Positions 4,657-31,013 of a stretch of 64,000 bases of DNA are shown piece after piece (positions within the stretch are counted from its first letter, which is position 1; each line of letters begins with the position of its first letter). Source of the stretch: Actinomycetota bacterium (GTDB taxonomy: Bacteria > Actinomycetota > Thermoleophilia > RBG-16-64-13); assembly GCA_018830645.1 (NCBI GenBank), contig JAHJSA010000052.1:62001-126000 (forward strand), given 5' to 3'. The notes beneath the pieces are model-generated. The model had not been told where the DNA came from. It made no database searches and worked only from the letters and a program-made list of their open reading frames with translations. Made by a program: the position numbers and the translations under genes.

Positions 4657-5217
4657 ATGACTTTGAAGGTGGTGTGGGGGATCACGGGCTCCGGCGATCT
4701 GATGCCGGAGACATTCGCGGCGATGTCGGCCGTCAAGGAGAAGGGGGACGTTCAGGTCACCGCGGTGCTTTCCATGGCGGCGGTGAAGGTCGTGCGTTGG
4801 TACAAGCTCTGGGAGCAGCTGGAGACCATAGCGAAAGACGTGTTGATCGAAGAGGACGCCAACACACCGTTCATTGTGGGCAGGCTACAGACCGGACGCT
4901 TCGATTGTCTGCTGGTTGCTCCTCTCACGGCGAATTCGGCAGCCAAGATCGCATGTGGGGTGGCGGACACGATCATCACCAACGCGGTGGCACAGACGAA
5001 CAAGATCGACGTACCCATCTTCTTGATGCCGGTTGATCAGCGCCCAGGAACGACTGTCACGACCCTCCCCGGCGGGGAGAAGCTCGAGCTGGCGATACGT
5101 CCGGTGGATATCGAGAATGCCCGGAAGCTGGCTGCGATGGATGGCATAGCGGTTCTATCTGGACCACAAGACATCGAGGGGGCGGTGGCGGGATGCTCAC
5201 GACGACACCCAGAGTAG
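4657..5217 (+). CDS. AfpA/DmrB-type flavoprotein, probable dihydromethanopterin reductase (acceptor)
   Basis: A 186-residue flavoprotein of the archaeoflavoprotein AfpA family. The N-terminal GITGSGDLMPET resembles the FMN site of decarboxylase-type flavoproteins, and APLTANSAAKIACGVADTI is the typical second motif. Members include dihydromethanopterin reductases that make H4MPT in methylotrophs and methanogens. No ferredoxin domain is attached, so an external donor is needed; the iron-sulfur flavoprotein 23 bases upstream is a candidate. ATG at 4657 is preceded by TGAGGAGGTC. The 3' end overlaps the beta-RFAP synthase gene by 25 bases, supporting co-translation and the pathway assignment. 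Confidence 0.8.
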   Translation: MTLKVVWGITGSGDLMPETFAAMSAVKEKGDVQVTAVLSMAAVKVVRWYKLWEQLETIAKDVLIEEDANTPFIVGRLQTGRFDCLLVAPLTANSAAKIACGVADTIITNAVAQTNKIDVPIFLMPVDQRPGTTVTTLPGGEKLELAIRPVDIENARKLAAMDGIAVLSGPQDIEGAVAGCSRRHPE

Positions 5218-6188
5218 CTACGAAAGTTGCCGTGACTACCGGCTGCAGGCTGCACATCGGCTTCACGAACCTGAGTGAGGATGTCGGCCGGTGCTACGGA
5301 AGCATAGGGGTGGCACTGGATTCCCCCAAGACCACGGTAGTGCTGCGGACCCACGACTCTCTGCGCGTAGTCGGAGAAGGGCAGGATCAGATAGAAGAGT
5401 TCCTGCGCCGCCTCTGTCGTCGCTTCGCGGTGGAGCCTCGAGTCTCCATCGAGATTCGCGAGAGGATCCCGGAGCACGTGGGTCTCGGCTCGGGCACGCA
5501 ACTCGCTTTGGCCGTGGGGATAGGACTGGCAAGAGTTCTCGGCCTGCAGGCAGACGTCTGCGACGTGGCGAGCGCCGTCGGCAGAGGTAGGCGCTCGGGG
5601 ATCGGGGTAGCGGCCTTTCGGACCGGCGGATTCATCATCGATGCCGGGCACAAGAAAGACCAGCATGGTGCCTGCGTGGCGCCAACGGTGATATTCCAGC
5701 GGGATTTTCCCTCCACGTGGCGCTTCGTGGTGGCAGTTGCAGGCGTGAAGCGAGGCCTCAATGGCCCGCGAGAAGAGAGGGTGTTCAATGCGCTCTCGCC
5801 GCCCGTCAGGATATCGGAAGAGATATGCAGACTGACTCAGCTCAAGCTCATGCCGGCCCTCATGGAAGAAGACATCGAGGAGTTCGGCGGCGCCCTAACC
5901 GCCATCGATCGGAAGACGGGGCTCTACTTCGAGAGCGCGCAGGGCGGGATCTACGGCGAAGGTGAGGCGGCCTCGACGATCGATGTGATGTTGCGCGCGG
6001 GGGCCTTCGGGGCCGGGCAGAGCTCGTGGGGACCGGCGGTGTATGGGGTGGTTGACGAGGCACGGCTTGGGCGCGTGGAAGATGAAGTGCGTCGGTTCGT
6101 GCAGGAGAGAGGTGTTGGAGGCCACGTTTTCGTGGCCCGGGGTCGCAACAGAGGAGCGCATATCGAGGTAGAGGCGCAGGAGCTATGA
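5193..6188 (+). CDS. Beta-ribofuranosylaminobenzene 5'-phosphate synthase (beta-RFAP synthase)
   Basis: A 331-residue GHMP-kinase-fold protein. The glycine-rich motif PEHVGLGSGTQLALAVG lies near residues 91-107, and RLHIGFTNL near the N-terminus is typical of beta-RFAP synthases. The enzyme condenses p-hydroxy- or p-aminobenzoate with PRPP and releases CO2, the first committed step in building the arene side of methanopterin. It overlaps the upstream AfpA/DmrB-like gene by 25 bases and converges with DUF447, overlapping its stop by 6 bases. The combination is diagnostic of H4MPT biosynthesis. Confidence 0.9.
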   Translation: MLTTTPRVATKVAVTTGCRLHIGFTNLSEDVGRCYGSIGVALDSPKTTVVLRTHDSLRVVGEGQDQIEEFLRRLCRRFAVEPRVSIEIRERIPEHVGLGSGTQLALAVGIGLARVLGLQADVCDVASAVGRGRRSGIGVAAFRTGGFIIDAGHKKDQHGACVAPTVIFQRDFPSTWRFVVAVAGVKRGLNGPREERVFNALSPPVRISEEICRLTQLKLMPALMEEDIEEFGGALTAIDRKTGLYFESAQGGIYGEGEAASTIDVMLRAGAFGAGQSSWGPAVYGVVDEARLGRVEDEVRRFVQERGVGGHVFVARGRNRGAHIEVEAQEL

Positions 6189-6890: not shown

Positions 6891-7751
6891 ATGAGGAAGA
6901 TCTTGCTTCAGCTGGACAGTGATCGAGCGCCCAGCGTGTTCGACGCCATCACAGCTTACGATGCCGGCGCGGAGGTGCTGCTCCAACATGGGGGAGTCCA
7001 GCCTGAAGAAGTCCGCGATCTCGTCTACGGCGCGATGTTCACGAGAGGAGTTGGCGATCTGAAGAACTCGGCGGTCTTCATCGGGGGGACCGATGTCGCC
7101 AAAGGAGAGGCCATGTTGCGGGAGGCTCGGAACGCCTTCTTCGGGCCCATGCGCGTATCGGTCATGCTCGATGCCAACGGGTGCAACACCACGGCTACGG
7201 CGGCCGTCGTGAAGATCCTCTCAGCAGGAGACCCGACAGCAATGAAGGTGGTGGTGCTCGCGGGAACCGGCCCGGTGGGCCAGAGGGCTGCGGCGTTGCT
7301 GGCCAACGAAGGGGCCGAAGTGATCCTGACATCCCGCACGTTGGAGCGGGCGGAGAGGGTGTGCGCGGCGCTCGCGGAACGTTTCGAGGTGCGGGTGACT
7401 CCCGCGGCGGTACCGGATGCCGATGCCACGCGGCGCGTCTTGGAGGGCGCTCACGCGGTCTTGTGCGCCGGCGCCGCCGGGGTGACTTTGGTCGAGGAGA
7501 CGGTCTGGAGGCCCCACGCTACCTTGCGGGCTGTGGCCGACGTGAACGCCGTGCCGCCCCTGGGCGCCGGGGGCGTCGAGGTCACCTGGGATGGGAAGGA
7601 GATCGAGGGCAAGAAGCTCTTCGGTGCCATCGGGATCGGCGATTTCAAGATGAAGGTGCATCGTCGGTGTATCGCCCGACTTTTCGAGCAGAACGACCTG
7701 GTGCTCGACGCGGAGGAGATTTTCGCGCTGGCCAAGGAACTGGCACGATAG
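6891..7751 (+). CDS. mtdB: NAD(P)-dependent methylene-H4MPT dehydrogenase
   Basis: A 286-residue protein of the MtdA/MtdB family. It oxidises methylene-H4MPT to methenyl-H4MPT with NAD(P)+ in the cytoplasm. The Rossmann motif VVVLAGTGPVGQ spans residues 120-131, and MLDANGCNTT near residues 92-101 is a typical substrate-side block. Neighbouring H4MPT genes favour MtdB over the H4F-specific MtdA. ATG at 6891 follows GAGGAGGT at 6875-6882; longer in-frame starts lack a ribosome-binding site. TATACA at 6810-6815 is a possible -10 box. It heads a tightly packed operon running to about 20.2 kb and overlaps the next gene by one base. Confidence 0.9.
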   Translation: MRKILLQLDSDRAPSVFDAITAYDAGAEVLLQHGGVQPEEVRDLVYGAMFTRGVGDLKNSAVFIGGTDVAKGEAMLREARNAFFGPMRVSVMLDANGCNTTATAAVVKILSAGDPTAMKVVVLAGTGPVGQRAAALLANEGAEVILTSRTLERAERVCAALAERFEVRVTPAAVPDADATRRVLEGAHAVLCAGAAGVTLVEETVWRPHATLRAVADVNAVPPLGAGGVEVTWDGKEIEGKKLFGAIGIGDFKMKVHRRCIARLFEQNDLVLDAEEIFALAKELAR

Positions 7752-8938
7752 TGCGCATCCTGCTCCTTGGAGTGAGCACCCGGGCGCCGGCCGAGTCCGC
7801 CGTCGGCGATGGGCAGGATATCGTCGCCGTGGACTATTTCGGGGATCGGGACCAGATGCGTGTCGTGGAGACCCACGCACTTCAGAGGGACCTCCACCTC
7901 CCGTTGACCGCCGAAGGGTTGGGCCAAGCCGCCAAGCTGATGCGAGCCGACGCGGTCGCCTATTCCGCGAATCTCGAGAACCATCCAGAGGTCGTGGAAG
8001 AGCTGGAAAGGGAGAGGGTGCTGCTCGGCAACGGACACGACGTCCTGAGAGAGGTGCGCGACTGGGGCACGCTACGGGAGTTCTGTCGGGAAGCGGGGAT
8101 CCCGCATCCGGTCACGCTCCTTCCGGGCGAAGAGGGGCGGGCCCTTCCGGGAGAAATGGGGCGGGCCTTCCCTGGTGGCCGTTGGCTCTCCAAGCCGGTG
8201 AGGAGTGGTGGCGGTCACGGTATCCGGCCTTGGGGCGGGGAGCCGCTCGATCAGTCACACATCCTGCAGGCCGAGGTGAAGGGTCGCGCCGCGTCGGTGG
8301 CGTTCGTGGCGAACGGCCGGGATAGCCGGGTCTTCGGCCTGACGGAGCAGCTTGTGGGGCGCGGCGAGTTCGGGGCCTCGGGGTTCACCTGGAGTGGCAA
8401 CATCCTGCCGCTTGACCTGGCTCTTCGGGATGGCGGTCTCCTTCTTCGCCGGATAGAGGAGATGGTCGCTCGGCTCACCCGCCGTTTCGGGCTGCGGGGG
8501 GTCAACGGGGCGGATCTCATCGTGGGCACGGAGCCGTCCGGCGCCCTCTGTCCCTACCTTGTGGAGGTCAATCCACGCTACAGCGCCTCCATGGAGCTGG
8601 CGGAGCGCGCATACGGGATACGCGTGTTCTCCCTCCACCTCGAGGGACTCGCCGGCCGGTTGCCGGAGATCTCTCTGGGCGGGCGTCTGCACGAGGGGTT
8701 CGTTGGCAAGGCCATCGTGTACGCGAAACATGCGGTGACCGTTGGATGCACCGACGAATGGATGGAGCAGGGGATACGCGACGTTCCCTTGTCGGGTCAA
8801 CGGATAGAAGCCGGTCACCCTGTGTGTACCGTGTTCGCCGAAGGGCACGACAAGCAGGGGTGTCTTGACGGGCTAGTCTTGCGGGCGGCTGCACGGTATC
8901 GGGTAATCGAGCATGAACGGGAGAAGTGCTATGGGTGA
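7751..8938 (+). CDS. ATP-grasp ligase of the H4MPT/methanofuran cluster
   Basis: A 395-residue ATP-grasp protein. SKPVRSGGGHGIRPW near residues 151-165 is the ATP-lid region and VEVNPRYSASMELAER holds the Mg-binding Glu/Asn. ATP-grasp proteins of this kind recur in methylotroph H4MPT islands and probably join glutamate or a similar residue to the cofactor. The exact substrate is unknown. GTG at 7751 overlaps the mtdB stop; the end overlaps the fwdD start by 8 bases. A 24-base near-perfect tandem duplication (8119-8142, 8143-8166) adds a repeated LPGE..GRA segment. Confidence 0.78.
   Translation: MRILLLGVSTRAPAESAVGDGQDIVAVDYFGDRDQMRVVETHALQRDLHLPLTAEGLGQAAKLMRADAVAYSANLENHPEVVEELERERVLLGNGHDVLREVRDWGTLREFCREAGIPHPVTLLPGEEGRALPGEMGRAFPGGRWLSKPVRSGGGHGIRPWGGEPLDQSHILQAEVKGRAASVAFVANGRDSRVFGLTEQLVGRGEFGASGFTWSGNILPLDLALRDGGLLLRRIEEMVARLTRRFGLRGVNGADLIVGTEPSGALCPYLVEVNPRYSASMELAERAYGIRVFSLHLEGLAGRLPEISLGGRLHEGFVGKAIVYAKHAVTVGCTDEWMEQGIRDVPLSGQRIEAGHPVCTVFAEGHDKQGCLDGLVLRAAARYRVIEHEREKCYG
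8119..8166 (+). repeat. 24-bp in-frame tandem duplication inside the ATP-grasp gene
   Basis: Two 24-base units (8119-8142, 8143-8166) differ at three positions, and a decayed third start follows. The duplication is a multiple of three and adds eight residues in the linker before the ATP-grasp core. Confidence 0.85.
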
Positions 8939-9263
8939 ACCTCTCACCTTGATCACGGGACGTACGCGTGAGCAGGCCATCGGCATGCACAAGGGAAAGA
9001 CCTCGCCCGAGTATCGGCAGGCAACAGCACGTGTCGAGATGAACGCGGACGATATGGCTCACTTGGGGATTCAAGAGGGGGGCATCGTCCGATTGCGCAC
9101 GGCGGCTGGAGAGGTGGATCTGTCCGCCCAAGCCGGCACCCTCCCTCGCGGGCTCGTGTTCGTTCCCCTCGGAGCTTCCGCCAACCTGCTTGTCGGCACT
9201 GAGACCCAAGGGACGGGGATGCCTTCCTTCAAGGGTGTGCCTGTCACGGCGGAGCCGGCATGA
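8931..9263 (+). CDS. fwdD: Formylmethanofuran dehydrogenase subunit D (molybdopterin-dinucleotide-binding)
   Basis: A 110-residue protein with the C-terminal molybdopterin-dinucleotide-binding beta-barrel fold. The segment TLITGRTREQAIGMHKGK and the domain ending GVPVTAEPA fit FwdD/FmdD. With FwdB it wraps the tungsto- or molybdopterin. This subunit is absent from the hydrolytic FhcABCD complex of aerobic methylotrophs (where FhcD is the formyltransferase), so its presence favours a redox formylmethanofuran dehydrogenase. I chose ATG at 8931 behind GGGAG rather than the in-frame ATG at 8913. It overlaps fwdB by 4 bases. Confidence 0.82.
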   Translation: MGEPLTLITGRTREQAIGMHKGKTSPEYRQATARVEMNADDMAHLGIQEGGIVRLRTAAGEVDLSAQAGTLPRGLVFVPLGASANLLVGTETQGTGMPSFKGVPVTAEPA

Positions 9264-10528
9264 GCACGACGATCGAACATGTCGCCTGTACCTTCTGTGG
9301 ATGCGTGTGCGACGACATCGTCGTCGAGATCGAGGGGTCTCGGATCGCGGGCGTCCGCCGCGCGTGCGCAGTTGGACGAGGGGTTCTCGACGAGTACGAC
9401 CCCGAGGTGCGGCGACCCACGCTCCGAGGGCGGGAGGTCGAGTGGGAGGCGGCTATCGAGGCGGCCGCCTCGATCCTCGATCGGGCGGACAGCCCCCTCA
9501 TCTACGGCCTCAGCTCCTCGGCCGTGGAGGCTCAGAGGAAGGCGGTCGAGCTGGCGGATCGACTCGGCGCTGTCATCGACACCACATCGTCGGTGTGTCA
9601 CGGCCCGACGGGGCTGGCGATGCAGGCGGTGGGTGAGGCTACCTGCACGTTGGGTGAGGTGCGCGATCGCGCGGATCTGATCGTCTTCTGGGGCTGTAAC
9701 CCCGCCGCCTCTCATCCCCGCCATTTTGGTCGGTTCTCGCTCACGCCGAAGGGCACCCACACGCCCAACGGCCGAAAGGACCGGACCGTCTTCGTTGTCG
9801 ACGTGCGTCCCACCGGCAGCTCCAAGCAGGCGGATCACTTCCTCCAGGTGGACGTTGGAGCGGACTACGAAGTACTCACGGCGCTTCGGTCACTGGTCAA
9901 GGGGAACGATTTGGCGCATGGATCTATCGGGGGGATCCCCGTGTCTCAGCTGAAGGACTTGGTGGAGCGCATGAAGGCGTGCCGCTACGGCGTCGTGTTC
10001 ATGGGCATGGGGCTTACGATGAGCCGGGGGCGGCACCTCAACGTGGGCGAGCTGTTCTCCCTGGTGACCGAACTCAACGACTACGCCCGGTTCTCTGTCA
10101 TTCCGATGAGGGGGCACGGGAACGTAGCAGGGGCCGACCAAGTGCTCACCTGGTCGACCGGCTACCCGTTCGCTGTGAGCTTCGCCCGCGGATATCCACA
10201 GTACGGGCCCGGCGAGTTCACCGCGGTCGACGTGTTGGCCCGCGGGGAGGCGGACGCGGCTCTCATCATCGCCTCCGACCCCGCGGCCCACTTCCCGCGC
10301 AGGGCCGCGGAGCACCTGGAGCGCATCCCCACGATTGTGTTGGACCCCTCCGAGAGTCTCACGGCGGGCATCGCTCAGGTGGTCTTCCCCACCGCGTCCT
10401 ATGGACTCGACGCGGCGGGTACGGCCTATCGCATGGACAACGTGCCCATTCCCCTCCGGCGACTGCTCACTTCGGGGCGCCCCACAGACGAGGAGGTCCT
10501 GGACCGGATCATCGAGGCGGTGAAGTGA
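9260..10528 (+). CDS. fwdB: Formylmethanofuran dehydrogenase subunit B (catalytic, Mo/W)
   Basis: A 422-residue molybdopterin oxidoreductase-fold subunit. It keeps the 4Fe-4S ligand set C10-x2-C13-x3-C17 and C36, and a Cys113 in SSVCHGPTG at the position expected to coordinate Mo/W in archaeal FwdB. Archaeal enzymes interconvert CO2 and formate at this site, and formate is condensed on methanofuran in FwdA. Retention of both the cluster and the metal ligand points to a working redox centre. Length is close to archaeal FwdB. It is translationally coupled on both sides (ATGA overlaps) to fwdD and fwdA. Confidence 0.88.
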   Translation: MSTTIEHVACTFCGCVCDDIVVEIEGSRIAGVRRACAVGRGVLDEYDPEVRRPTLRGREVEWEAAIEAAASILDRADSPLIYGLSSSAVEAQRKAVELADRLGAVIDTTSSVCHGPTGLAMQAVGEATCTLGEVRDRADLIVFWGCNPAASHPRHFGRFSLTPKGTHTPNGRKDRTVFVVDVRPTGSSKQADHFLQVDVGADYEVLTALRSLVKGNDLAHGSIGGIPVSQLKDLVERMKACRYGVVFMGMGLTMSRGRHLNVGELFSLVTELNDYARFSVIPMRGHGNVAGADQVLTWSTGYPFAVSFARGYPQYGPGEFTAVDVLARGEADAALIIASDPAAHFPRRAAEHLERIPTIVLDPSESLTAGIAQVVFPTASYGLDAAGTAYRMDNVPIPLRRLLTSGRPTDEEVLDRIIEAVK

Positions 10529-12159
10529 TGCTGGGTGTGCTCGGCGGACGTGTGTACGACCCGCGGAACGGCAGCGACGGCGAGACCCGGGACATCTGGG
10601 TGAAGGACGGTCGCGTCGTGTCACCCGAGGAAGCGGACCGGCAAGGCGCGGAGATCGTCGACGCCACCGGTTTGGTGGTCATGCCTGGTGGGGTGGACAT
10701 CCACAGCCATATCGTCGGAGCCAAGGTGAACGCCGCCCGGAAGTTCCGCCCGGAAGATCACCGCGGCGCGGAGCGCGCACGCGCCGGTGCCTTTCGCTCC
10801 GGTTCGGGACACACGGTTCCCAGCACTCATCTGACCGGATACCTCTACGCGGAGATGGGCTACACGACGGTGATGGAGGCCGCCACCGCCCCTCTGGTCG
10901 CCCGGCACGCCCACGAGGAGATGGCGGATGTGCCCATCATCGACAAGGCCACCTTCATCACCATGGGCAACAACCACTTCCTCATGAAATGCATCCGCGA
11001 CGGCCGACATGAGATGGCGCGCGATTACGTGGCCTGGCTCTTGAGGGCGAGTAAGGGATACGCCATAAAGATCGTCAATCCGGGCGGCGTGGAGAATTGG
11101 AAGTGGGGAAGCAACGTAGGCGAACTCGACGACGAGGTGATCGGATTCGGGGTCACCCCTCGGCAGATCCTCGAGACCCTGGCCCAGATCAGCGGCGAGT
11201 TGGGTCTGCCCCACCCCCCCCACATCCACGGGATCAACCTGGGAAGAAGCAGTAGCGCCCGTACCTCCATCGAGACCATGGCGGCGTTGGATGGGCTGCG
11301 GGCCCACTTCTGCCATATTCAGTTCCTGAGCTACGGCAAGGGGAAGGGCGGCGTGCACACGTCGGAGGCTGTGGCGATCGCGGAAGCGGTCAACGCCCAC
11401 CCCGACCTGACCGTCGACGTGGGGCAGCTGGTCTTCGGCTCGGCCACGACGATGACTTCCGACGGGCCGCTTCAGCACAGTCTGCACCGCACGACCGGGA
11501 GCAAGTGGATGAACGTCGATGTGGAGGGCGAAACAGGAGGCGGGATCGTCCCCGTCTTCTACAAGCGCACCAACCCCATCAACGCCGTGATGTGGCGCAC
11601 CGGGATGGAGTTGTTCCTACTCATCAAGGATCCGTGGAAGGTCTTCCTGACCACCGATCACCCGAATGCGGGATGCTTCACATCCTATCCCCACGTGATC
11701 AAGCTGTTGATGGACCGCGACTATCGGGCAGAGGTGTTCGAAGGCATCCACGCCCGGGCCCGTGAGGGCAGTGTGCTCCACGATCTGGAGCGTGAGTATT
11801 CTCTGTACGAGATCGCCGTGATCACCCGCGCAGGCCCGGCTCGGGCGCTAGGGCTTAAGAACAAAGGCCACCTGGGTGTCGGCGCGGACGCCGACATCGC
11901 GATCTACCAGGAGATGGACGACAAGGCGGAGATGTTCGCCCGTCCCCGGTACGTCTTCAAAGGAGGGACGCTCGTGGCGCGGGATGGAACGGTCGTCGCG
12001 GATCCTCCGGGGCGCACGTTCTACGTGGCCCCTTCATACGATCCGGGGGTAGAGAAGGATATTCGAAGACACTTCGAGGCGACTTACACCGTGTCGTTCG
12101 AGAACTACTCGATGTTGTCGCAACCTGTGACCCATGAAGAGGTGATCGCGTGCGGGTGA
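10528..12159 (+). CDS. fwdA: Formylmethanofuran dehydrogenase subunit A (amidohydrolase)
   Basis: A 543-residue amidohydrolase-superfamily protein. The dinuclear metal site is visible: H59-x-H61 (DIHSHIVG), a candidate carboxylated lysine K181 in YAIKIVNPGG, and H232/H234 in PPHIHGINLG. FwdA forms or hydrolyses N-formylmethanofuran. The ATG overlaps the fwdB stop. The 3' end overlaps mptA by 10 bases. It belongs to the core mtdB-fwdDBA-mptA operon. Confidence 0.9.
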   Translation: MLGVLGGRVYDPRNGSDGETRDIWVKDGRVVSPEEADRQGAEIVDATGLVVMPGGVDIHSHIVGAKVNAARKFRPEDHRGAERARAGAFRSGSGHTVPSTHLTGYLYAEMGYTTVMEAATAPLVARHAHEEMADVPIIDKATFITMGNNHFLMKCIRDGRHEMARDYVAWLLRASKGYAIKIVNPGGVENWKWGSNVGELDDEVIGFGVTPRQILETLAQISGELGLPHPPHIHGINLGRSSSARTSIETMAALDGLRAHFCHIQFLSYGKGKGGVHTSEAVAIAEAVNAHPDLTVDVGQLVFGSATTMTSDGPLQHSLHRTTGSKWMNVDVEGETGGGIVPVFYKRTNPINAVMWRTGMELFLLIKDPWKVFLTTDHPNAGCFTSYPHVIKLLMDRDYRAEVFEGIHARAREGSVLHDLEREYSLYEIAVITRAGPARALGLKNKGHLGVGADADIAIYQEMDDKAEMFARPRYVFKGGTLVARDGTVVADPPGRTFYVAPSYDPGVEKDIRRHFEATYTVSFENYSMLSQPVTHEEVIACG

Positions 12160-13187
12160 ATGCCCCGGCCGGAACGAATGCCCCGGCCGAAAAAGGGGCA
12201 GCGCCGTTTGCGAACCGGAATCCAGCACCCAGGATCGAGCGCGATGTCCAGAAGGACAGGCCCGCGGTCCCTGCCGCCCTGAGCCGGGCGGGAGTGACCA
12301 ATCTGCGCCGGATTATCCGCATCTCGGATGGAGGCGAAGCTCAGCTCTTCTACGCCACGATGGATCTTTTCGCCGATCTCAATCCCGAGCAGGCCGGCGT
12401 GCACATGTCTCGGTTCAACGAGGTCGTGGAGAGGCTCGCGGGAGAGCTGGCCTGGGAGCCGTCCCCGGACATAGAGTCCCTGGCGGGCCGCATGGCGCAG
12501 CAGGTGGTTGAGACTCAGGGTGCGATGCGCTCCGAGGTCCGCATCCGCGCGCATTTCCCGATCATCAAGCGGACTCCGATCACCGGCCTGCCTACGGAAG
12601 AGCTCTACACGCTTCTGGGAATAGCGGCCTCCACTCCCGAGCGCACCCGCCGCCTGGTAGGTGTGGAGGTAGAAGGGTTGACCGTCTGTCCGTGCGCGCA
12701 GGACATCATGAGGAGCCACTCGGAAGACCTCCTTCAGGAGAGCGGCTTCACCGAAGAGCAGGTCGAGCGGATACTGAACGTTCTGCCCATGGCTTCGCAC
12801 AATCAGCGGGGCAGGGGGATGCTGCTCATCGGATCGGAGAAGCGACTGCGCGCCGAGGATCTCGTCGACCTCGTGGAGCGATCGATGAGCTCCGAGACCT
12901 ACGAGCTGCTCAAGCGCCCCGACGAGTTCTACGTTGTGGACAAAGCGCACCGTAACCCGCGGTTCGTGGAGGATGTGGTACGCGAGATGCTGCGCAACGT
13001 CGTGGAGGCGTATCCCGACCTGCCCGGCGACGCGTTCCTCCTGGCGCGACAGGAGAACTTCGAAGGCATACATGAGCACAACGCCTTCGCCGAACGCTGC
13101 GGAACGCTGGGCGAGATCCGCCCGGAGATCGCGGGGGAGGCTCACGCGCCCCGGCACACGACGCTGGAAGGCTGGCTCACGACCTAG
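12150..13187 (+). CDS. mptA: GTP cyclohydrolase MptA/FolE2 family
   Basis: A 345-residue FolE2/MptA-type GTP cyclohydrolase. The metal-binding cysteine lies in GLTVCPCAQDIM, followed by RSHSEDLL. MptA converts GTP to dihydroneopterin 2',3'-cyclic phosphate, the first step of the methanopterin pterin. FolE2 makes dihydroneopterin triphosphate for folate; context favours MptA. The GTG start at 12150 lies inside fwdA; the low-complexity N-terminus (repeated NAPAGTNAPAEKGA) makes a later start possible. Confidence 0.82.
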   Translation: MRVNAPAGTNAPAEKGAAPFANRNPAPRIERDVQKDRPAVPAALSRAGVTNLRRIIRISDGGEAQLFYATMDLFADLNPEQAGVHMSRFNEVVERLAGELAWEPSPDIESLAGRMAQQVVETQGAMRSEVRIRAHFPIIKRTPITGLPTEELYTLLGIAASTPERTRRLVGVEVEGLTVCPCAQDIMRSHSEDLLQESGFTEEQVERILNVLPMASHNQRGRGMLLIGSEKRLRAEDLVDLVERSMSSETYELLKRPDEFYVVDKAHRNPRFVEDVVREMLRNVVEAYPDLPGDAFLLARQENFEGIHEHNAFAERCGTLGEIRPEIAGEAHAPRHTTLEGWLTT

Positions 13188-13206
13188 GAGCGCGGAGGGT
13201 TTGTAG

Positions 13207-14541
13207 ATGCCCGAGTATCTGTTCGTTACCGGCCGGTTGGCGGCCGCTGCACTGCGGAGCACCCTGGACAGGTTGGAGCTGGACTTCGACTATGAGGTGG
13301 CCGTGCTCGACATCTCGGTGGCCGCTTTGATGCGCGCCGAATGGGTCGCCCGTCGGCTGTCGGATGCCCGCGGGTGTCGGCAGGTCATGGTGCCGGGCCT
13401 GTGCCGCGGGGATCTGGCCGCTATCGAGAGGAAGCTTGGCATCCCTGCTGTTCGCGGTCCCAAGGACCAGAAGGATCTGCCACCCTTCTTCGGCAAGGAG
13501 CGGGTCCTGGAGGGATACGGCGAGTACCACACGAAGATCTTGGCGGAGATCGTGGAAGCCTACCAGATGCCCTGGGAGGCGATCTTAGACGTGGCCGAGT
13601 ACTACCGGCAGAGCGGCGCCGACATCATCGATTTGGGCTGCCCCCCGATGGAGGGTTTTCCGGGGGTAGGAGATGTGGTGACCGGCCTGAAAGAGCGGGG
13701 TTTCGCGGTCAGCGTGGACACCTTCGACCCCGAGACCATCCGGGAAGCCGACGCCGCCGGCGTCGATCTGCTGTTGAGCGTGAACTCAGAGAACATGGAC
13801 ATGGTTCCAGAGCTACGGTGCAAGGTAGTGGTGATCCCCGACTTCGGCGAGGGACTGGACTCGCTGGAGGGGAACATCGCCCGGGTGGAATCGTTGGGGG
13901 CTTCCTACGTGGTCGACCCGATTCTCGACCCGCTCAGTTTCGGCTTCACGGAATCCCTCCTGCGCTACCACGAGACGCGGCGGCGTCATCCCGAAGCGGA
14001 GATCCTCATGGGCCTGGGCAACCTCACGGAGCTCACCGACGCGGACAGCACCGGCATCAACGCCGTGATGGCCGGTGTGATGGCCGAACTCGAGATCGAC
14101 TACGTGCTCACCACCGAGGTGATCAGCTGGGCTCGAGGATCGGTGCGCGAGTTGGACCTGGCCCGCAGGCTGATGCACTACGCCAACAAGAACCGGATGC
14201 TCCCCAAGTCGATCGAAGACAGCCTGATCGCGTTGAAGGATCCCCCCTTCGAGACCTACTCCGAGGAGGAGCTGCGCGAGATCCAGCGCCTGGTGCGCGA
14301 TACGCACTACCGGATCTTCGCAGACCGCGAGTGGGTGTACGTGTTCAACCGGGACACGTTTCTGCGGGGCGTCGATCCGTACGATCTCTTCAGCAGTCTC
14401 GACGTGACCGATCCCGGCCACGCCTTCTACCTGGGGCGGGAGCTGGAGCGGGCCGCTCTCGCGGTGCTACTGCGCAAGAAGTACACGCAGGAGTCGGAGC
14501 TTCGGTGGGGGTATCTGAGCCCGGAGCCGGCGGGACGATGA
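13207..14541 (+). CDS. Dihydropteroate-synthase-like pterin-binding protein (DUF6513-type)
   Basis: A 444-residue two-part protein. The N-terminal ~130 residues resemble DUF6513. The C-terminal TIM barrel carries pterin-binding-family motifs such as ADIIDLGCPPMEG, FAVSVDTFDPETI and PILDPLSFGF. The family includes archaeal proteins proposed to couple the pterin with the beta-RFAP-derived arene during methanopterin synthesis. It lies 19 bases after mptA and overlaps the DUF1464 gene by 4 bases, so it is part of the same operon. The coupling role is family-based inference. Confidence 0.8.
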   Translation: MPEYLFVTGRLAAAALRSTLDRLELDFDYEVAVLDISVAALMRAEWVARRLSDARGCRQVMVPGLCRGDLAAIERKLGIPAVRGPKDQKDLPPFFGKERVLEGYGEYHTKILAEIVEAYQMPWEAILDVAEYYRQSGADIIDLGCPPMEGFPGVGDVVTGLKERGFAVSVDTFDPETIREADAAGVDLLLSVNSENMDMVPELRCKVVVIPDFGEGLDSLEGNIARVESLGASYVVDPILDPLSFGFTESLLRYHETRRRHPEAEILMGLGNLTELTDADSTGINAVMAGVMAELEIDYVLTTEVISWARGSVRELDLARRLMHYANKNRMLPKSIEDSLIALKDPPFETYSEEELREIQRLVRDTHYRIFADREWVYVFNRDTFLRGVDPYDLFSSLDVTDPGHAFYLGRELERAALAVLLRKKYTQESELRWGYLSPEPAGR

Positions 14542-15668
14542 CGCGGGCGATCGGCATAGATCCCGGGACGGTGAGTTTCGACGTGTGCGGCCGCGACGGG
14601 GACCGCCTCCTCCTCGACAGGACCTTCTCCACCGTGGAGGCCGGGGCCGATCCGGGACGGTTGGTGGACGTTCTTCGCTCGGTCGGCCCGGTGGACATCA
14701 TCGTCGGCCCGTCGGGTTATGGGTTGCCGTGGGTGGGTGTGGAAGACCTGGGCCCCCGCGAGATCGACCTCATGCTGCTTGGCGACAAGCGAGAAGGTTC
14801 GCTTGGGACGATCGTGGCGGGGATGGGCGGGATCCTACAGGCTCTGAAAGAGAGCGGGTTGCCGCTGTGCTTCGCTCCGGGGGTGATCCACCTCCCCACT
14901 GTGCCGGCCCACCGCAAGGCCAACCGCATCGACATGGGCACGGCCGACAAGCTGTGTGCGGTTGCGCTGGGTATCTGGGACCAGGCGCGCCGTCTTGGAG
15001 TACCCTATGACGAGGTCTCATTCGTCTACATGGAGATGGGAGGCGCCTTTACGGCCGTAACAGCCGTGGAGGACGGCCGGATCGTGGACGGGTCGGGCGG
15101 CACGTCCGGGGCCATGGGATACCAGGCCCTCGGGGCTATGGATGGTGAGGTGGCATATCTGCTCGGAGGCTTCTCCAAGGGGAACCTCGCCACAGGCGGC
15201 ATGGCCTGGATCGCCGGCACTCCCGACCGTTCCCCCGAGGAGATCGTGTCCGTGGTGGACGCCGATTGCCAGGCCGCTCTGGCATGGGAGGCCTTCCTGG
15301 AGGGCGTGGTGAAACAGGTGGCCGCGCAGATGACGGTGCTGGCCCACCCCAGGGAGATTATGCTGTCCGGACGTCTCAGCCGCGTGCCGGAGCTCTTCCA
15401 AGAGATCACGCGGCGCCTTGCTCCCTTCGCCCCCGTGCGGAAGGTGGAAGGCTTCGCCTCTGTCTCGGCGGAAGCGGCGCAAGGGGCGGCGTTGCTGGGC
15501 CAGGGGTTGGCAGGCGACCCGACCCTGGAGGGTTTGGTGGAGACTATGGAGCTGCGTGGAGCACATGGCTCCGTGCTGGACCATCTATACGTGGGTGAGG
15601 CCGAAGAACTGAGACGGAGGTACGCGATGCCCGAGTCCAGGCCGGCGCCTTTCTGTAAAGGGAGCTGA
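14538..15668 (+). CDS. DUF1464 family kinase-like protein (acetate/sugar-kinase fold)
   Basis: A 376-residue protein opening with AIGIDPGTVSFDVCG, an ASKHA-type phosphate-1 loop, with VYMEMGGAFTAV and MLSGRLSRVPEL as later ATP-binding segments. It matches DUF1464, an archaeal family once annotated as possible butyrate kinase. Its place between the DHPS-like gene and ftr argues for phosphorylation or activation of an H4MPT or methanofuran intermediate rather than butyrate use. The substrate is unknown. Confidence 0.75.
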   Translation: MTRAIGIDPGTVSFDVCGRDGDRLLLDRTFSTVEAGADPGRLVDVLRSVGPVDIIVGPSGYGLPWVGVEDLGPREIDLMLLGDKREGSLGTIVAGMGGILQALKESGLPLCFAPGVIHLPTVPAHRKANRIDMGTADKLCAVALGIWDQARRLGVPYDEVSFVYMEMGGAFTAVTAVEDGRIVDGSGGTSGAMGYQALGAMDGEVAYLLGGFSKGNLATGGMAWIAGTPDRSPEEIVSVVDADCQAALAWEAFLEGVVKQVAAQMTVLAHPREIMLSGRLSRVPELFQEITRRLAPFAPVRKVEGFASVSAEAAQGAALLGQGLAGDPTLEGLVETMELRGAHGSVLDHLYVGEAEELRRRYAMPESRPAPFCKGS

Positions 15669-15674
15669 CTTCTC

Positions 15675-16562
15675 ATGCGCATCAACGGAGTGGAGATCGA
15701 AGACACGTTCGCCGAGGCGTTCGAGATGTGGGGCGCACGCCTGATCATCACCGCGCACAACGAGCGCTGGGCCTTGACGGCGGCCCAGGCCGCCACCGGC
15801 TTCGCCACGTCGATCATCGGATGCGGTTGCGAGGCGGGCACGAACGACCTGCCGGCTGACGAGCGAACGCCCGATGGCCGTCCCGGTGTGGCCGCGCTCT
15901 TCTTCACCACCTCCCGCCAGAACATGGAGGCGCAGCTGCTGCAGCGGGTGGGGCAGGGCGTGATGACGTCTCCCACTTCGGCCTGCTACAACGGCCTCGA
16001 CGCCGGCGACACGATCAAGGTGGGCGGCAAGCTCCGCTTCTTCGGTGACGGGTTTCAGAGCAGCAAGTTGCTGGACGGGCGCCGGCTGTGGCGGGTGCCC
16101 GTGATGGACGGGGAATTCGTCGTGGAGGAGAACTTCGGCGTGAGCAAGGCCGTGGGAGGTGGCAACTTCTTCATCATGGCCGAGGATCTTGAGGCCGCTC
16201 TGGCAGCGGCCGAGGCCGCCGTGACCGCCATGCGCGCGGTGCCGGGCGTGATTATGCCGTTCCCCGGGGGCATCGTACGCAGCGGGAGCAAGGTCTCGTC
16301 CAGGTACAAGGGCCAGCACGTCTCCAGCAACACTCCCTACTGCCCGACTATCCGGCCCCTCGTCGAAAGCGCCCTGCCCGACGGGGTGGAGGCTGTCCTG
16401 GAGATCGTCATCGACGGGCTGGAGGAGGAAGCGGTGGGCGAGGCGATGCGGGTCGGCGTCGGGGCGTCCTGTCTCCCGGGCGTGGTGCGCATCACGGCCG
16501 GGAACTACGGAGGCTCGCTGGGGCGATACCAGTTCCATCTCCGGGATCTGGTTGACGCCTGA
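15675..16562 (+). CDS. ftr: Formylmethanofuran:H4MPT formyltransferase
   Basis: A 295-residue protein matching Ftr/FhcD along its length. MRINGVEIEDTFAEAFEMW is the conserved start, and ATSIIGCGCEAG and QLLQRVGQGVMTSPTSACYN are diagnostic. It moves the formyl group between N-formylmethanofuran and H4MPT in the cytosol. It starts 6 bases after the DUF1464 gene and is followed by fwdC after 48 bases. Length equals the archaeal enzyme. Confidence 0.92.
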   Translation: MRINGVEIEDTFAEAFEMWGARLIITAHNERWALTAAQAATGFATSIIGCGCEAGTNDLPADERTPDGRPGVAALFFTTSRQNMEAQLLQRVGQGVMTSPTSACYNGLDAGDTIKVGGKLRFFGDGFQSSKLLDGRRLWRVPVMDGEFVVEENFGVSKAVGGGNFFIMAEDLEAALAAAEAAVTAMRAVPGVIMPFPGGIVRSGSKVSSRYKGQHVSSNTPYCPTIRPLVESALPDGVEAVLEIVIDGLEEEAVGEAMRVGVGASCLPGVVRITAGNYGGSLGRYQFHLRDLVDA

Positions 16563-16610
16563 AGCCGACATGACTCGTTTCGCCAGACCTCGAGGAAGGA
16601 GGCTTCATTC

Positions 16611-17468
16611 ATGGGGTGCTTAGCATGTGCGGCGCTTATGCTGGACCGGGGTGGCGTGACGCTGTACCGGAAGGAATCGAGTCCTATCCCCGTGGAGGCC
16701 GACAGCATCTGCCCGGATCGCTTCCTGGGCCGTGGACCGGCTGAGATCGCGGCACTTCCCGCCTTCTACGGCCGCCGCCGCGTGACCCTCGGCGATCTGT
16801 TCGAGGTGGAGGGGGCGGGCGCCGACAACATCACCGTCTCTGGAGATCTTCGCCACGTCAAGAAGATCGGGCTTGGGATGTCGATGGGCCGGATCACCGT
16901 GACGGGCGACGTGGGGCCTCACCTTGGCGCCTACATGTCGGGCGGTGAGATATCGGCGGAGGGGACTGCCGGGGATTGGGTCGGGGCTCACATGAAGGGT
17001 GGCCGCATCGTGGTGCAGGGCGATGCCGGACATTTCGTGGGCGCCGCCTACCCCGGTGAGACGCGGGGCGTCACCGGCGGCACCATCGTCGTCGGCGGAA
17101 AGGTAGGGGGGGAGGTCGGAGCCCGGATGCGCCGCGGGCTGATCGTTGTCTTGGGAGACACAGGGGAGTTCGCCGGCGCCCACATGATCGCCGGCTCCAT
17201 CCTGGTCTTCGGTCGCTTGGGCGCTCGACCCGGAGCGGGGATGAAGCGGGGCACCATCGTTGCTTTCGGTGACGCTCCTGATCTCCTACCCACCTTCCGC
17301 TACGCGTGCCGGTTTCAGCCCGCCTTCCTGCGCTTCCACCTGCGCCGCCTCGGGGAATCGGGTCTTTCGATAGACTCGGAGCCGGCGGACGGCCATTTCC
17401 GGCGCTACCTGGGCGATATGAACGAGTTGGGGAAAGGAGAGATTCTCGTCCGTGATCAGCCTCAATGA
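16611..17468 (+). CDS. fwdC: Formylmethanofuran dehydrogenase subunit C
   Basis: A 285-residue right-handed beta-helix protein of the glutamate-synthase alpha-C family. Repeats of the type G-x4-G-x-x-M/A-x-G are plain from about residue 75 to 220, for example MSMGRITVTGDVG and HMKGGRIVVQGDAG. FwdC scaffolds FwdA and FwdB. It is separated from fwdDBA by about 4.4 kb of biosynthetic genes in the same operon. Its end overlaps mch by 17 bases. The cysteine-rich start MGCLACAALML is unusual. Confidence 0.88.
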   Translation: MGCLACAALMLDRGGVTLYRKESSPIPVEADSICPDRFLGRGPAEIAALPAFYGRRRVTLGDLFEVEGAGADNITVSGDLRHVKKIGLGMSMGRITVTGDVGPHLGAYMSGGEISAEGTAGDWVGAHMKGGRIVVQGDAGHFVGAAYPGETRGVTGGTIVVGGKVGGEVGARMRRGLIVVLGDTGEFAGAHMIAGSILVFGRLGARPGAGMKRGTIVAFGDAPDLLPTFRYACRFQPAFLRFHLRRLGESGLSIDSEPADGHFRRYLGDMNELGKGEILVRDQPQ

Positions 17469-18417
17469 CATAGCGGTTGGGATCGTGCGTCGGATGGTCG
17501 CCGAGGCGGAATCCTTGGGGGTGGCGGTCTCCCGCCTCTCCAACGGTACCCAGATCGTCGATGCCGGGGTGGAGGTGCCCGGGTCCCTCGAAGCCGGCCG
17601 CCTGTTCTCCGAGGCCTGCATGGGTGGGTTGGGGGAGGTTCGCTTCAGCATGGTGCAGCTGGAAGGGCTCACCCTCCCCGGCGTCGAGGTCAACGTGCAC
17701 CGGCCGCTGTTGGCCTGCATGGCGGCGCAGTATGCGGGATGGGCGGTCAACGTGCCGGAGAGCGCGATGTCGCCGTCGTACTTCGCCATGGGCTCCGGCC
17801 CGGCGCGGGCGCTGTATCGGGGAGACCCGATCTTCGAGATCATCGACTACCGTGACCCAGGAGAGATGGCGGTGCTGACCCTGGAATCCCGCCAGCTTCC
17901 CACCCCGGAGGTCGCCGGCTGGATCGCCGAGAAGTGCGGCGTATCTCCCGACCGCCTCCATCTCCTGGTGGCGCCGACGGCCAGTCTGGTCGGGTCCGTG
18001 CAGATAGCCGCCAGGATCGTCGAGACCGGATTGCACAAGATGCACGAGGTCGGCTTCGATATCTCCACGGTGCTGTCGGGCTTCGGTGCGTGCCCGCTCG
18101 CTCCCGTAGCGGGTGACGACCTGCAGGCCATCGGCCGCACGAACGACGCCGTGCTCTACGGCGGGCGCGCCTGGTACACGGTGCGCACGGACGATGCGGA
18201 GATCGAACGGGTCATCGAGGATCTGCCGTCGATGGCGTCGCGAGACTACGGCGTCCCGTTCGCCGAGCTCTTTCAGCGGTACGGAGGAGACTTCTACCAG
18301 ATCGACCCCCTCCTCTTCAGTCCTGCCGAACTCGCCCTCGTGAACGTCGCCAGCGGCCGCACCTTCCGAGCGGGCAGGGTCGACGTCGCCATGGTGGAAA
18401 GGGTCTTGCTCGGTTGA
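17452..18417 (+). CDS. mch: Methenyl-H4MPT cyclohydrolase
   Basis: A 321-residue Mch. The conserved blocks SEACMGGLGEVRF, GWAVNVPESAMSPSYFAMGSG-type segment and CPLAPVAGDDLQAIGRTNDA are present. Mch interconverts methenyl-H4MPT and N5-formyl-H4MPT. The GTG start at 17452 lies inside fwdC behind GGAAAGGAGA. The stop overlaps the TTG start of the next ATP-grasp gene. With MtdB, Ftr and Fwd it completes the methylene-to-CO2 branch. Confidence 0.92.
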   Translation: MISLNDIAVGIVRRMVAEAESLGVAVSRLSNGTQIVDAGVEVPGSLEAGRLFSEACMGGLGEVRFSMVQLEGLTLPGVEVNVHRPLLACMAAQYAGWAVNVPESAMSPSYFAMGSGPARALYRGDPIFEIIDYRDPGEMAVLTLESRQLPTPEVAGWIAEKCGVSPDRLHLLVAPTASLVGSVQIAARIVETGLHKMHEVGFDISTVLSGFGACPLAPVAGDDLQAIGRTNDAVLYGGRAWYTVRTDDAEIERVIEDLPSMASRDYGVPFAELFQRYGGDFYQIDPLLFSPAELALVNVASGRTFRAGRVDVAMVERVLLG

Positions 18418-19286
18418 GGGTCGGGATACTCGGGCAGAAGGGGGGATGGCACACTGAGGCCCTCGTCGCGGCGCTGGCCCGCCGGAGTATCGCGGCCGAG
18501 TGCTTCCCCGTCACTCAGCTGACGGCCCGGGTGACGGCGCGGCCTCGGCTGACGGCCGCCGCGACCTCTCTGGACGAGTTCGACGTGGTCTTCGTGCGGG
18601 CGATCCCAGCGGGATCCCTGGAGCAGATCATCTTCCGTGTGGACGCGCTGCACCGCCTCGAGGCCGCCGGTGTACGGGTGGTCAATTCGGCTGCGGCCAT
18701 CGAACGCGGGGTGGACAAGTACTACACCGCGGCGCTCCTGGAAGACGCCGGTCTACCGACTCCGCGCACCATCGTCACGGAACGGTGGGAGGATGCGCTT
18801 GCCGCCTTCCAGGAGCTGGGTGGCGATGTGGTGGTGAAACCTCTGTTTGGGTCCGAGGGCAGGGGTATGACCCGCGTATCGGACGCGGATACCCTCTATC
18901 GTGTGCTGCGCGCGCTCGAGCTGGGGCGGTACGTGTTCTGCGTGCAGGAGTTCGTGCCTCACGGATGCGCGGATATCCGCACCTTCGTCGTGGGAGGGCG
19001 GGTGGTCGCAGCCATGTTGCGTCGGGGAAACGGCTGGAAGACCAACACGGCTCAGGGGGCGAAGGGGGAGCCGTACGACATGGACGACCATGTGGTCGAG
19101 ATGAGCCTGCGCTCCGCGGAGGTGTTGGGGGCCGAGCACGCGGGCGTGGACATCCTGCCCTGCGAGAGCGGCGGGTACTCCGTTCTCGAGGTCAACACCA
19201 TCCCGGGCTGGCGTTCACTGCTGTCGGCGACCGGGGTGGATGCGGCAGAGTGTCTGGTGGACCATGTTCTCGAGGGGTCGGGGTGA
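18414..19286 (+). CDS. RimK-like ATP-grasp ligase (MptN-type candidate)
   Basis: A 290-residue RimK/GshB-type ATP-grasp enzyme. VVVKPLFGSEGRGM is the P-loop-like lid and SVLEVNTIPGWRSL contains the Mg ligand. RimK-like ligases such as MptN add glutamate to H4MPT in archaea, so a gamma- or alpha-glutamylation role on the C1 carrier is plausible. TTG at 18414 overlaps the mch stop. The C-terminal stop lies in the first unit of a 23-base repeat. Confidence 0.78.
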   Translation: MRVGILGQKGGWHTEALVAALARRSIAAECFPVTQLTARVTARPRLTAAATSLDEFDVVFVRAIPAGSLEQIIFRVDALHRLEAAGVRVVNSAAAIERGVDKYYTAALLEDAGLPTPRTIVTERWEDALAAFQELGGDVVVKPLFGSEGRGMTRVSDADTLYRVLRALELGRYVFCVQEFVPHGCADIRTFVVGGRVVAAMLRRGNGWKTNTAQGAKGEPYDMDDHVVEMSLRSAEVLGAEHAGVDILPCESGGYSVLEVNTIPGWRSLLSATGVDAAECLVDHVLEGSG

Positions 19287-19353
19287 ACCCGCTGGACGGG
19301 TCGAAGTGAGCCGGCTGGATGGGTCGAGATGAGGTCGCTGGACGGAATCGAGA
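19284..19353 (+). repeat. Three tandem 23-24 bp units at a stop/start junction
   Basis: Units at 19284-19306, 19307-19329 and 19330-19353 share the pattern TGA-N5-GCTGGAYGG-N2-TCGA-N2. The first TGA is the stop of the ATP-grasp gene, and the third copy provides the ATG (19329-19331) of the CitG-like gene. The duplication has pulled apart what was probably a stop-start overlap like those elsewhere in this operon. Confidence 0.85.
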
Positions 19354-20216
19354 TCGGTTGGGCCGCACAGATAGCGTGCCTGTTCGAGGTGAACGCTGAC
19401 AAGCCGGGCAACGTATCGCGGCACGCGGACTTCCACGACACTCGGTTCGAGGATTTTGTGGCAAGCGCCGTTGCCATCGGCCCGGCGTTCCAGGACGCGG
19501 CCCGCGCTACGGTTGGCGAGACCGTTCTGCGGGCCGTGCGCGACACCAGGCGATTCGTCCGCACGAACACCAACCTGGGGATCGTCCTTCTCCTCGCCCC
19601 CCTGGCGAAGGCGGCATGTGGCGAGGGATCAGAAGGGTTGCGGCCGAAGGTGGCTCGGGTGCTGGGTGAGTTGACGGCGGACGACTCCGGCAAGGTCTAC
19701 ACTGCCATCCGCCTCGCCGCACCAGCCGGACTGGGGGAAGTGGAGCAGTACGATGTGAACGAGGGCACCGTTGACACGACCCTGCGTTACGCGATGGAGT
19801 TGGCTCAGGACCGCGACTCCGTGGCTCGGGAGTACGTCTCGGACTTCGAGATCACGTTCGGGTTGGGGTATGAGACCCTTCGCCGAGCCTGGGAGGAGGG
19901 CCGCGACTTCTCGGATGCCATCGTCCATGCCTTCTTGACGGTGCTCGCGCAGGTGCCCGACACGCTTATTGCCCGCAAGGGGGGGCGGGCGGCCGCTGAG
20001 GCGGTCTCGCGGCGAGCAGGGGATGTGCTGGCAGCCGGAGGATCCCTCTCCCCCCGGGGACGCGAGGAACTGGTGCGGTTCGATCGCGATCTGCGGGACG
20101 ATTCGCACCGGCTGAATCCCGGCACCACCGCCGATCTGGTAGCCGCTTCCATCTTCGTCTTCCTTACGGAGGGCGGGATGCTCAAGGGTGTTTCCGACCT
20201 CATCACGCGACGGTGA
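19329..20216 (+). CDS. CitG-like triphosphoribosyl-dephospho-CoA synthase family protein
   Basis: A 295-residue all-alpha protein of the CitG/MdcB superfamily. EVNADKPGNVSRHADF at residues 19-34 and the TNTNLGIVLLLAPLAKA block match. In H4MPT islands this family is a standard member and is thought to act in cofactor assembly, by analogy with ribosylation from a nucleotide donor; the reaction is not settled. The ATG is in the third unit of the tandem repeat. It is the last gene of the mtdB operon and is followed by a convergent HisA-like gene 34 bases on. Confidence 0.78.
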   Translation: MRSLDGIEIGWAAQIACLFEVNADKPGNVSRHADFHDTRFEDFVASAVAIGPAFQDAARATVGETVLRAVRDTRRFVRTNTNLGIVLLLAPLAKAACGEGSEGLRPKVARVLGELTADDSGKVYTAIRLAAPAGLGEVEQYDVNEGTVDTTLRYAMELAQDRDSVAREYVSDFEITFGLGYETLRRAWEEGRDFSDAIVHAFLTVLAQVPDTLIARKGGRAAAEAVSRRAGDVLAAGGSLSPRGREELVRFDRDLRDDSHRLNPGTTADLVAASIFVFLTEGGMLKGVSDLITRR

Positions 20217-25613: not shown

Positions 25614-25948
25614 CGGTGGGTGAGGACGCACCGCTCGAACGGGCGGGGAGCGGCTCGAACACGCGGAAGTGCTGCGGGTCGCCGCGGGGCTGCGGCAGGC
25701 GGACGAACTCTCGCAGTGATGAAGTACGGGTATCTTGACCGAATGATCCGAAAAAAGACCTGCTCAAGGGGATGTTTTCGATGAGGTTCCGCGTGTCTTC
25801 TTGCTTGTGACGTCTTTCCCAGGGTGCTATACTGGCCGCCGTTGCCGTGCCATACGGCCGCTGCACCCACCCTGTGGATGGTTTGAGCACACTCGGGAGC
25901 ACCAGTCGCTCGAGCAGCTCGGTCGTCCTATGCAATCAGGAGGCTGGC
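25614..25948 (+). other. Intergenic region with gene fragment and hdr promoter
   Basis: The first 105 bases hold a 31-codon open fragment ending at a TGA at 25717-25719 (tail HAEVLRVAAGLRQADELSQ) with no start codon after the preceding in-frame stop. I read it as a remnant or chance. The remainder carries the hdr promoter at 25805-25833 and a 5' leader of about 110 bases. An in-frame upstream extension of hdrC to 25847 is open but unlike HdrC. Confidence 0.5.
25805..25833 (+). promoter_or_regulatory. Promoter of the hdr-flx operon
   Basis: TTGTGA (25805-25810), 17 bases, then TATACT (25828-25833), with an extended -10 TGC immediately before the hexamer. The same TGC-TAYACT arrangement appears upstream of the DUF3870 gene, and a related TGC-TATCCT upstream of the arginine decarboxylase gene. 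Confidence 0.7.
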
Positions 25949-29564: not shown

Positions 29565-29577
29565 AGAGGTGGTGACG

Positions 29578-31004: not shown

Positions 31005-31013
31005 AGAGGAGGG

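Follow-up and report, generated by a model that had tools for sequence, protein, structure and literature searches.

We analysed a 64,000-nucleotide stretch of an Actinomycetota contig (JAHJSA010000052.1, positions 62,001 to 126,000; hereafter the window) that encodes a formylmethanofuran dehydrogenase, FwdABCD, within a tight operon shared with Ftr, Mch, MtdB and genes for methanopterin and methanofuran synthesis. Reading frames and family scans show that the genes for FwdD, FwdB, FwdA, Ftr, FwdC, Mch and MtdB are all intact and lie on one strand, and neighbouring genes from mtdB to rimK are closely packed, with overlaps of a few bases or gaps of at most 48. An earlier reading made without database searches (the sequence-only reading) had placed FwdABCD at 8931-17468, coordinates that proved exact from FwdD to FwdC. 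The core genes are listed here, with H4MPT denoting tetrahydromethanopterin and Mo/W denoting molybdenum or tungsten.

6891-7751, + strand: MtdB-type methylene-H4MPT dehydrogenase (Mpt_N PF09176)
7748-8938, + strand: ATP-grasp protein between mtdB and fwdD, a placement conserved across phyla (PF02655; synteny)
8931-9263, + strand: FwdD, molybdopterin-dinucleotide-binding subunit (NF042908, 81 bits, below the cut-off of 175; Molydop_binding PF01568, 62.7 bits, above cut-off; matches the solved FwdD chains 2ki8, 8rja and 5t5i_D)
9260-10528, + strand: FwdB, catalytic subunit with 4Fe-4S cysteines C10/C13/C17/C36, the predicted Mo/W ligand C113, H114 and R284 (TIGR03129, 548 bits, cut-off 328; residues mapped to 5t5i)
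10528-12159, + strand: FwdA, amidohydrolase subunit, true start at 10528 (TIGR03121, 667 bits; alignment to solved FwdA)
15675-16562, + strand: Ftr, formylmethanofuran:H4MPT formyltransferase (TIGR03119, 415 bits)
16611-17468, + strand: FwdC (TIGR03122, 266 bits)
17452-18417, + strand: Mch, methenyl-H4MPT cyclohydrolase (TIGR03120, 398 bits)

Alignment of the window FwdB with that of Methanothermobacter (5t5i) places C10, C13, C17 and C36 on Cys9, Cys12, Cys16 and Cys35, and places C113, H114 and R284 on Cys118, His119 and Arg288, so that the cluster cysteines and the complete catalytic triad are retained, with C113 at the metal-ligand position that the sequence-only reading had assigned to it. 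The window FwdA retains the HxH, lysine and aspartate motifs of solved FwdA, and the A, B, C and D subunits that define a formylmethanofuran dehydrogenase (Fwd/Fmd) are all present. The features of the hydrolytic Fhc enzymes are not found, as FwdD is encoded at 8931-9263 and FwdB keeps its metal ligand; according to a published structural rule, where the metallopterin is lost, subunit D is missing and the loops of B are remodelled (PMC11656701). A profile search of the whole genome gave nothing above cut-off for FwdF (best 41 bits; FwdG was not searched separately), which extends to the genome an absence already reported for the window. Because FwdF and FwdG are accessory electron-transfer subunits outside the catalytic core, we retain the classification as Fwd.

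The source genome (G000) is an actinomycetote metagenome-assembled genome of 3.87 Mb in 112 contigs, 99.8% complete with 2.9% contamination, and our genome-wide statements come from family searches of it. Mo/W cofactor synthesis, which the sequence-only reading had proposed as a check, is represented on contig C20 by a TupA-like tungstate-binding protein, a MobA-MobB fusion, MoaA, MoaC and MoaB, and the molybdopterin oxidoreductase family PF00384 matches at 15 places in the genome.

We then compared the window enzyme with related bacterial loci. A scan of GTDB genomes gave at least 386 relatives; we retained the best 80 loci, and all counts are thus lower bounds. The four Fe-S cysteines are kept in 80/80 of these loci, a figure that is partly the product of selection since one search pattern included three of the four; position 113 was absent from the patterns. 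At the position equivalent to C113 there is a cysteine in 77 of the best 80 loci and an in-frame TGA, followed by HGP, in the other three, which are planctomycete. FwdD or a FwdD domain occurs in 76 of the 80, and two of the four loci without a match (L057 and L080) are on contigs that start only a short way before fwdB. The expected domain was confirmed in FwdD proteins spot-checked from planctomycetes, proteobacteria and gemmatimonadetes. These counts, together with a Hakubella enzyme published in 2020, dispose of the earlier suggestion that such an enzyme is exceptional in bacteria.

Proteobacterial loci also contain second FwdB copies (n=13) that are 26-35% identical and mostly retain the Fe-S cysteines. 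All 13 have lost the Cys, His and Arg triad, with A, G or S at the ligand position, and they form a separate clade in the tree; by these sequence features they are Fhc-type paralogues. Since most of them keep the four Fe-S cysteines, we rejected these cysteines as evidence against Fhc, a use to which the sequence-only reading had put them. The discriminator between Fwd and Fhc is instead the Cys/His/Arg triad together with FwdD. The accompanying statement that FhcB has lost a redox centre is borne out for Methylorubrum, where the alignment of 6s6y_B does not begin until query residue 56, but fails as a rule for bacteria.

The window enzyme is thus, judged from sequence, of the Fwd type and not Fhc, as had been proposed, because the triad and FwdD are present, the genome meets the needs of the Mo/W-bis-pyranopterin guanine dinucleotide cofactor and all 13 Fhc-type paralogues have lost the triad. 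We put at roughly 78% the probability that FwdABCD is a competent Mo/W-dependent formylmethanofuran dehydrogenase that forms a CO2/methylene-H4MPT branch with Ftr, Mch and MtdB; all the genes of the full branch claimed by the sequence-only reading are indeed intact in the operon. FwdD plus Cys/His/Arg gives a way to tell whether a bacterial genome encodes the redox-active Fwd or the hydrolytic Fhc, and its use here points to the redox form being common among bacterial H4MPT operons, those of planctomycetes and proteobacteria included.

The tree groups the window FwdB in a clade of 13 rows (SH-aLRT 99) with sequences from Actinomycetota, Chloroflexi SpSt-1225, Desulfobacterota and Synergistota, mostly anaerobic lineages as judged by the named taxa, with matching operon gene order. 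Bacteria with the window-type gene set include Synergistota, Desulfobacterota, Planctomycetota, Chloroflexota and many Gammaproteobacteria; FwdB is above cut-off in just 3 of 296 genomes drawn from Actinomycetota.

The proposed chemistry would divide the net interconversion of CO2 and formyl-methanofuran into a redox step on formate at FwdB/FwdD and a condensation or hydrolysis with methanofuran at FwdA. With Ftr, Mch and MtdB this would give a reversible branch between CO2 and methylene-H4MPT. Elsewhere in the genome, contig C94 encodes carbon monoxide dehydrogenase, acetyl-CoA synthase (ACS), CdhD, FolD, FTHFS and RACo, and contig C106 encodes MetF/MetV- and AcsE-like proteins with a formate dehydrogenase (several of these genes were named by eye from sequence), so that a folate-type Wood-Ljungdahl pathway is predicted to be complete. 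The family searches of the source genome found neither the formaldehyde-activating enzyme Fae (PF08714) nor the methylene-H4MPT reductase Mer (TIGR03555); within a set of 15 related genomes, Fae was not found in 14 and Mer was not found in any. With no Mer found and a full folate branch present, we rejected Fwd as the methyl branch of the Wood-Ljungdahl pathway, and for the same reasons Fwd-Ftr-Mch-MtdB would be a second one-carbon (C1) route that ends at methylene-H4MPT. No known enzyme for that end was identified: Fae and Mer were not found, and glycine hydroxymethyltransferase, MtaB/MttB and further Fae-like genes were not searched. This exposes a gap, namely a multi-phylum C1 operon without a known methylene-end enzyme in which one conserved protein of unknown function occupies that place. 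That protein, DUF2193, is the first of the window cluster and has the following neighbours.

1488-3020, + strand: DUF2193 protein, candidate enzyme for the methylene-H4MPT end (PF09959, 751 bits; context; AlphaFold model)
3140-3868, + strand: AqpM-like aquaporin, paired with DUF2193 as in archaea (MIP PF00230; best PDB matches AqpM 3ne2 and 2evu)
4022-4633, + strand: NADPH-FMN-reductase-like flavoprotein, which in some archaea joins DUF2193 and AqpM as a third member (PF03358; gene context)

DUF2193 is strongly conserved, with a mean column identity of 79% among 11 bacterial copies and 109 positions invariant over 23 bacterial and 10 archaeal sequences. All 24 bacterial copies with readable context lie in H4MPT operons (for the contexts in G043 and Desulfocapsa, the continuation to mtdB was seen in L044 and L053), and these 24 include all 13 copies found among 121 Synergistota genomes. 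Within one archaeal phylum, main-group DUF2193 is followed on the same strand by an AqpM-related aquaporin in 10/10 cases, and the window repeats this pairing; the sampled genomes are related, and the 10/10 count is not a probability. The AlphaFold model of DUF2193 has a predicted template modelling score (pTM) of 0.84, and comparison of the model with the PDB gave no fold match (best TM-scores <0.2). The sole literature mention that we found describes DUF2193 as conserved in methanogens with a possible Fe-S motif only (PMC9431491).

Guilt by association leads us to suggest, tentatively, that DUF2193 acts at the methylene-H4MPT end. With similar caution, DUF2193, the AqpM-like channel and the flavoprotein might together form an unrecognised system that loads or unloads C1 units at methylene-H4MPT, the source being a small uncharged molecule, for instance methanol or hydrated formaldehyde. 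In that case the C1 unit would enter through a step involving DUF2193, supplied by the AqpM-like channel. If this is true, bacteria without Fae and Mer would gain a ferredoxin- or NAD(P)H-yielding C1 oxidation to CO2 via Fwd, and the DUF2193-AqpM system would also be at work in methanogens and Archaeoglobi. The function of DUF2193 is directly testable in a genetically tractable methanogen.

Several points weigh against the overall reading, from a competent Fwd that forms the branch to DUF2193 at its methylene end. The whole argument is built on sequence, and the window FwdD scores below the curated FwdD cut-off, which was made for the archaeal tungsten enzyme. The window operon has no dedicated electron-partner gene, FwdF and FwdG being absent from it. 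Methanosarcina acetivorans, one of our search controls, holds both Fae and DUF2193, so DUF2193 is not simply a replacement for Fae. Finally, an H4MPT-using serine hydroxymethyltransferase, which was not searched for, could equally serve the methylene end in either direction.

Related proteobacterial operons offer possible electron partners. At 21 proteobacterial loci (e.g. L064:14879-16677) a ferredoxin and an FprA-type NADPH-ferredoxin reductase are encoded beside fwd, mostly directly after fwdC, and several of the 21 have an additional set of the Fhc type further downstream. Four loci from Methylothermaceae/Methylococcaceae encode, next to a fwdB of the Fwd type, a fusion of FwdD with a CysJ-type NADPH flavoprotein that has flavodoxin, FAD and NAD domains (L118:7706-9898, L108:7512-9794, L113:1562-3829 and L093:1-1431, all on the - strand); we had considered these four FwdD matches as misplaced genes and rejected that in favour of the fusions. 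The nearest electron module in the window itself is the following.

25847-33119, + strand: HdrC-HdrB-HdrA-MvhD with AsrA/AsrB-like flavoproteins, a possible electron partner (family scans)

HdrABC-MvhD was rejected as a conserved Fwd partner, since it is not near fwd in related bacterial loci, and remains a possibility for the window. The sequence-only reading had the branch driven or balanced by low-potential electrons; this found no support, and several other bacterial Fwd operons have NADP(H)-linked modules.

These modules bear on the direction of the pathway, as they favour oxidation, if indirectly, and we consider it probable, though well short of certain, that the Fwd branch is oxidative, carrying a C1 unit at the formaldehyde level to CO2 with the yield of NAD(P)H and reduced ferredoxin. 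Ferredoxin-driven reduction of CO2 to methylene-H4MPT for biosynthesis, for example of serine or glycine via an H4MPT-using hydroxymethyltransferase, would be allowed by the reversibility of Fwd chemistry and by the HdrABC-MvhD-like module being the nearest one in the window. Fwd could indeed be the C1 source in Acetomicrobium, where FTHFS was not found in the genome searched (G305), and in Halanaerobium (G307), where only short FTHFS fragments were found. The source genome, however, has FTHFS, FolD and MetF and does not need a second C1 source, and a reductive role is therefore doubtful here.

A hydrolytic, Fhc-like action is much less credible than either direction of Fwd catalysis. FwdA would hydrolyse formyl-methanofuran to free formate, as it is FwdA that catalyses hydrolysis in Fhc, the FwdB/FwdD site would be a remnant, and selenocysteine formate dehydrogenases would oxidise the formate. 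The missing FwdF and FwdG would fit such an action, and a candidate selenocysteine formate dehydrogenase with NuoE/NuoF-like partners on contig C106 could handle the formate. In a remnant, however, residues would be expected to drift, whereas the FwdB catalytic and cluster residues and FwdD are all kept and every examined Fhc-type paralogue has lost the triad. That the operon instead belongs to another organism through mis-binning of the contig is the least plausible explanation of all. The genome is in 112 contigs and the gene set is rare in the phylum, but in G043 (Soudan_30), a separate genome of the same family, the operon is closely matched from DUF2193 to MfnD, the nearest FwdB by tree path is from Actinomycetota, and contamination is low.

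Fwd itself is already known in bacteria, and what is new lies in the surrounding pathway, a probably oxidative Fwd branch with DUF2193 as a candidate at its methylene end. Merino et al. (2020; PMC7325909) described fwdDBA-ftr-fwdC in Candidatus Hakubella thermalkaliphila (L057/L039), an actinomycetote that shares with the window the fwdBA-ftr-fwdC order, the FwdB Fe-S domain with catalytic Cys118 and the lack of FwdEFG. Hakubella was reported without dihydromethanopterin reductase or H4MPT glutamate ligase (PMC7325909), unlike the window with its near-complete H4MPT synthesis set; DUF2193 was not found in the Hakubella genome searched, and Hakubella FwdB lies outside the window FwdB clade. Chistoserdova (2016; PMC5020050) named Actinomycetes, Synergistetes and Chloroflexi among the bearers of H4MPT genes. 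In that survey fwdD was recorded for Synergistetes, Firmicutes and NC10 and was missing from Planctomycetes and Proteobacteria, an absence that our loci contradict. Wells et al. (2023; PMC10100899) put the number of bacterial FwdB at 149 and inferred transfer from archaea. The archaeal W/Mo FwdABCDFG (5t5i; also 8rja and 7bkb) has the same four subunits, 4Fe-4S cysteines, Cys118/His119/Arg288 and FwdA motifs; the window differs from it in lacking FwdF and FwdG, in belonging to a bacterium with a folate Wood-Ljungdahl pathway besides and in the embedded DUF2193-AqpM pair. Synergistota, Desulfocapsa and Halanaerobium operons share the order DUF2193, mtdB, ATP-grasp, fwdDBA, ftr, fwdC, mch. Most such operons, unlike the window, have no AqpM-like gene beside DUF2193, and ACS, present in the source genome, was not found in the Synergistota and Halanaerobium genomes searched. 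The Fhc of aerobic methylotrophs (6s6y) shares FwdA, FwdB and FwdC homologues and Ftr but has neither FwdD nor metallopterin (PMC11656701).

A further group of window genes mostly concerns carrier synthesis.

4657-5217, + strand: AfpA flavoprotein (TIGR02699, 215 bits, above cut-off)
5193-6188, + strand: beta-RFAP synthase, methanopterin synthesis (TIGR00144, 189 bits, above cut-off)
12150-13187, + strand: MptA GTP cyclohydrolase (TIGR00294, 293 bits)
13207-14541, + strand: dihydropteroate-synthase-like protein of H4MPT synthesis (TIGR00284, 188 bits, below cut-off)
14538-15668, + strand: DUF1464, kinase-like H4MPT cluster protein (PF07318, 284 bits)
18414-19286, + strand: RimK/MptN-like ligase (PF08443)
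19329-20216, + strand: CitG-like protein of H4MPT clusters (PF01874, 255 bits)
20981-22066, + strand: MfnD-like tyramine-glutamate ligase, methanofuran synthesis (NF040722, 108 bits, below cut-off)
22047-23105, + strand: MfnF-like/TIGR03123 H4MPT-linked protein (TIGR03123, 331 bits, above cut-off)
23102-23875, + strand: MfnE-like kinase (NF040622, 113 bits, below cut-off)
23715-24485, - strand: MfnB, (5-formylfuran-3-yl)methyl phosphate synthase, start approximate (NF002573, 262 bits, below the cut-off of 341)

With this set, in which several genes score below curated cut-offs, the cell appears to make carriers of both the methanopterin and the methanofuran type.

A second archaeal DUF2193 group (L194:1462-2958, L195 and L196) is about 33% identical and has no AqpM neighbour; the L194 copy adjoins HdrA. 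In Desulfobacteraceae (L046:3145-7662 and L048:3263-7368) the site before mtdB encodes a protein of about 591 residues, flanked by genes for LarB-like and split LarC-like nickel-insertion proteins; the 591-residue protein has no Pfam or NCBIfam match and gives a poor model (mean predicted local distance difference test score, pLDDT, of 39). The TGA of the three planctomycete FwdB genes falls exactly at the Mo/W-ligand codon (L102:4524, L110:10331 and L116:1459) and is probably read as selenocysteine; some 21 nt further on each gene has a similar hairpin of 6-7 bp, with a folding energy not lower than that of shuffled sequences. A contig filed as Euryarchaeota (SP207; L103:9950-11293) has a FwdB nested among Pirellulaceae and is probably a mislabelled planctomycete bin. 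Upstream of the window on its own contig (C47; L042:1834-12441), within 20 kb, lie a gene for an iron-type alcohol dehydrogenase and three genes of the aldehyde:ferredoxin oxidoreductase (AOR) family, whose members are tungsten enzymes.

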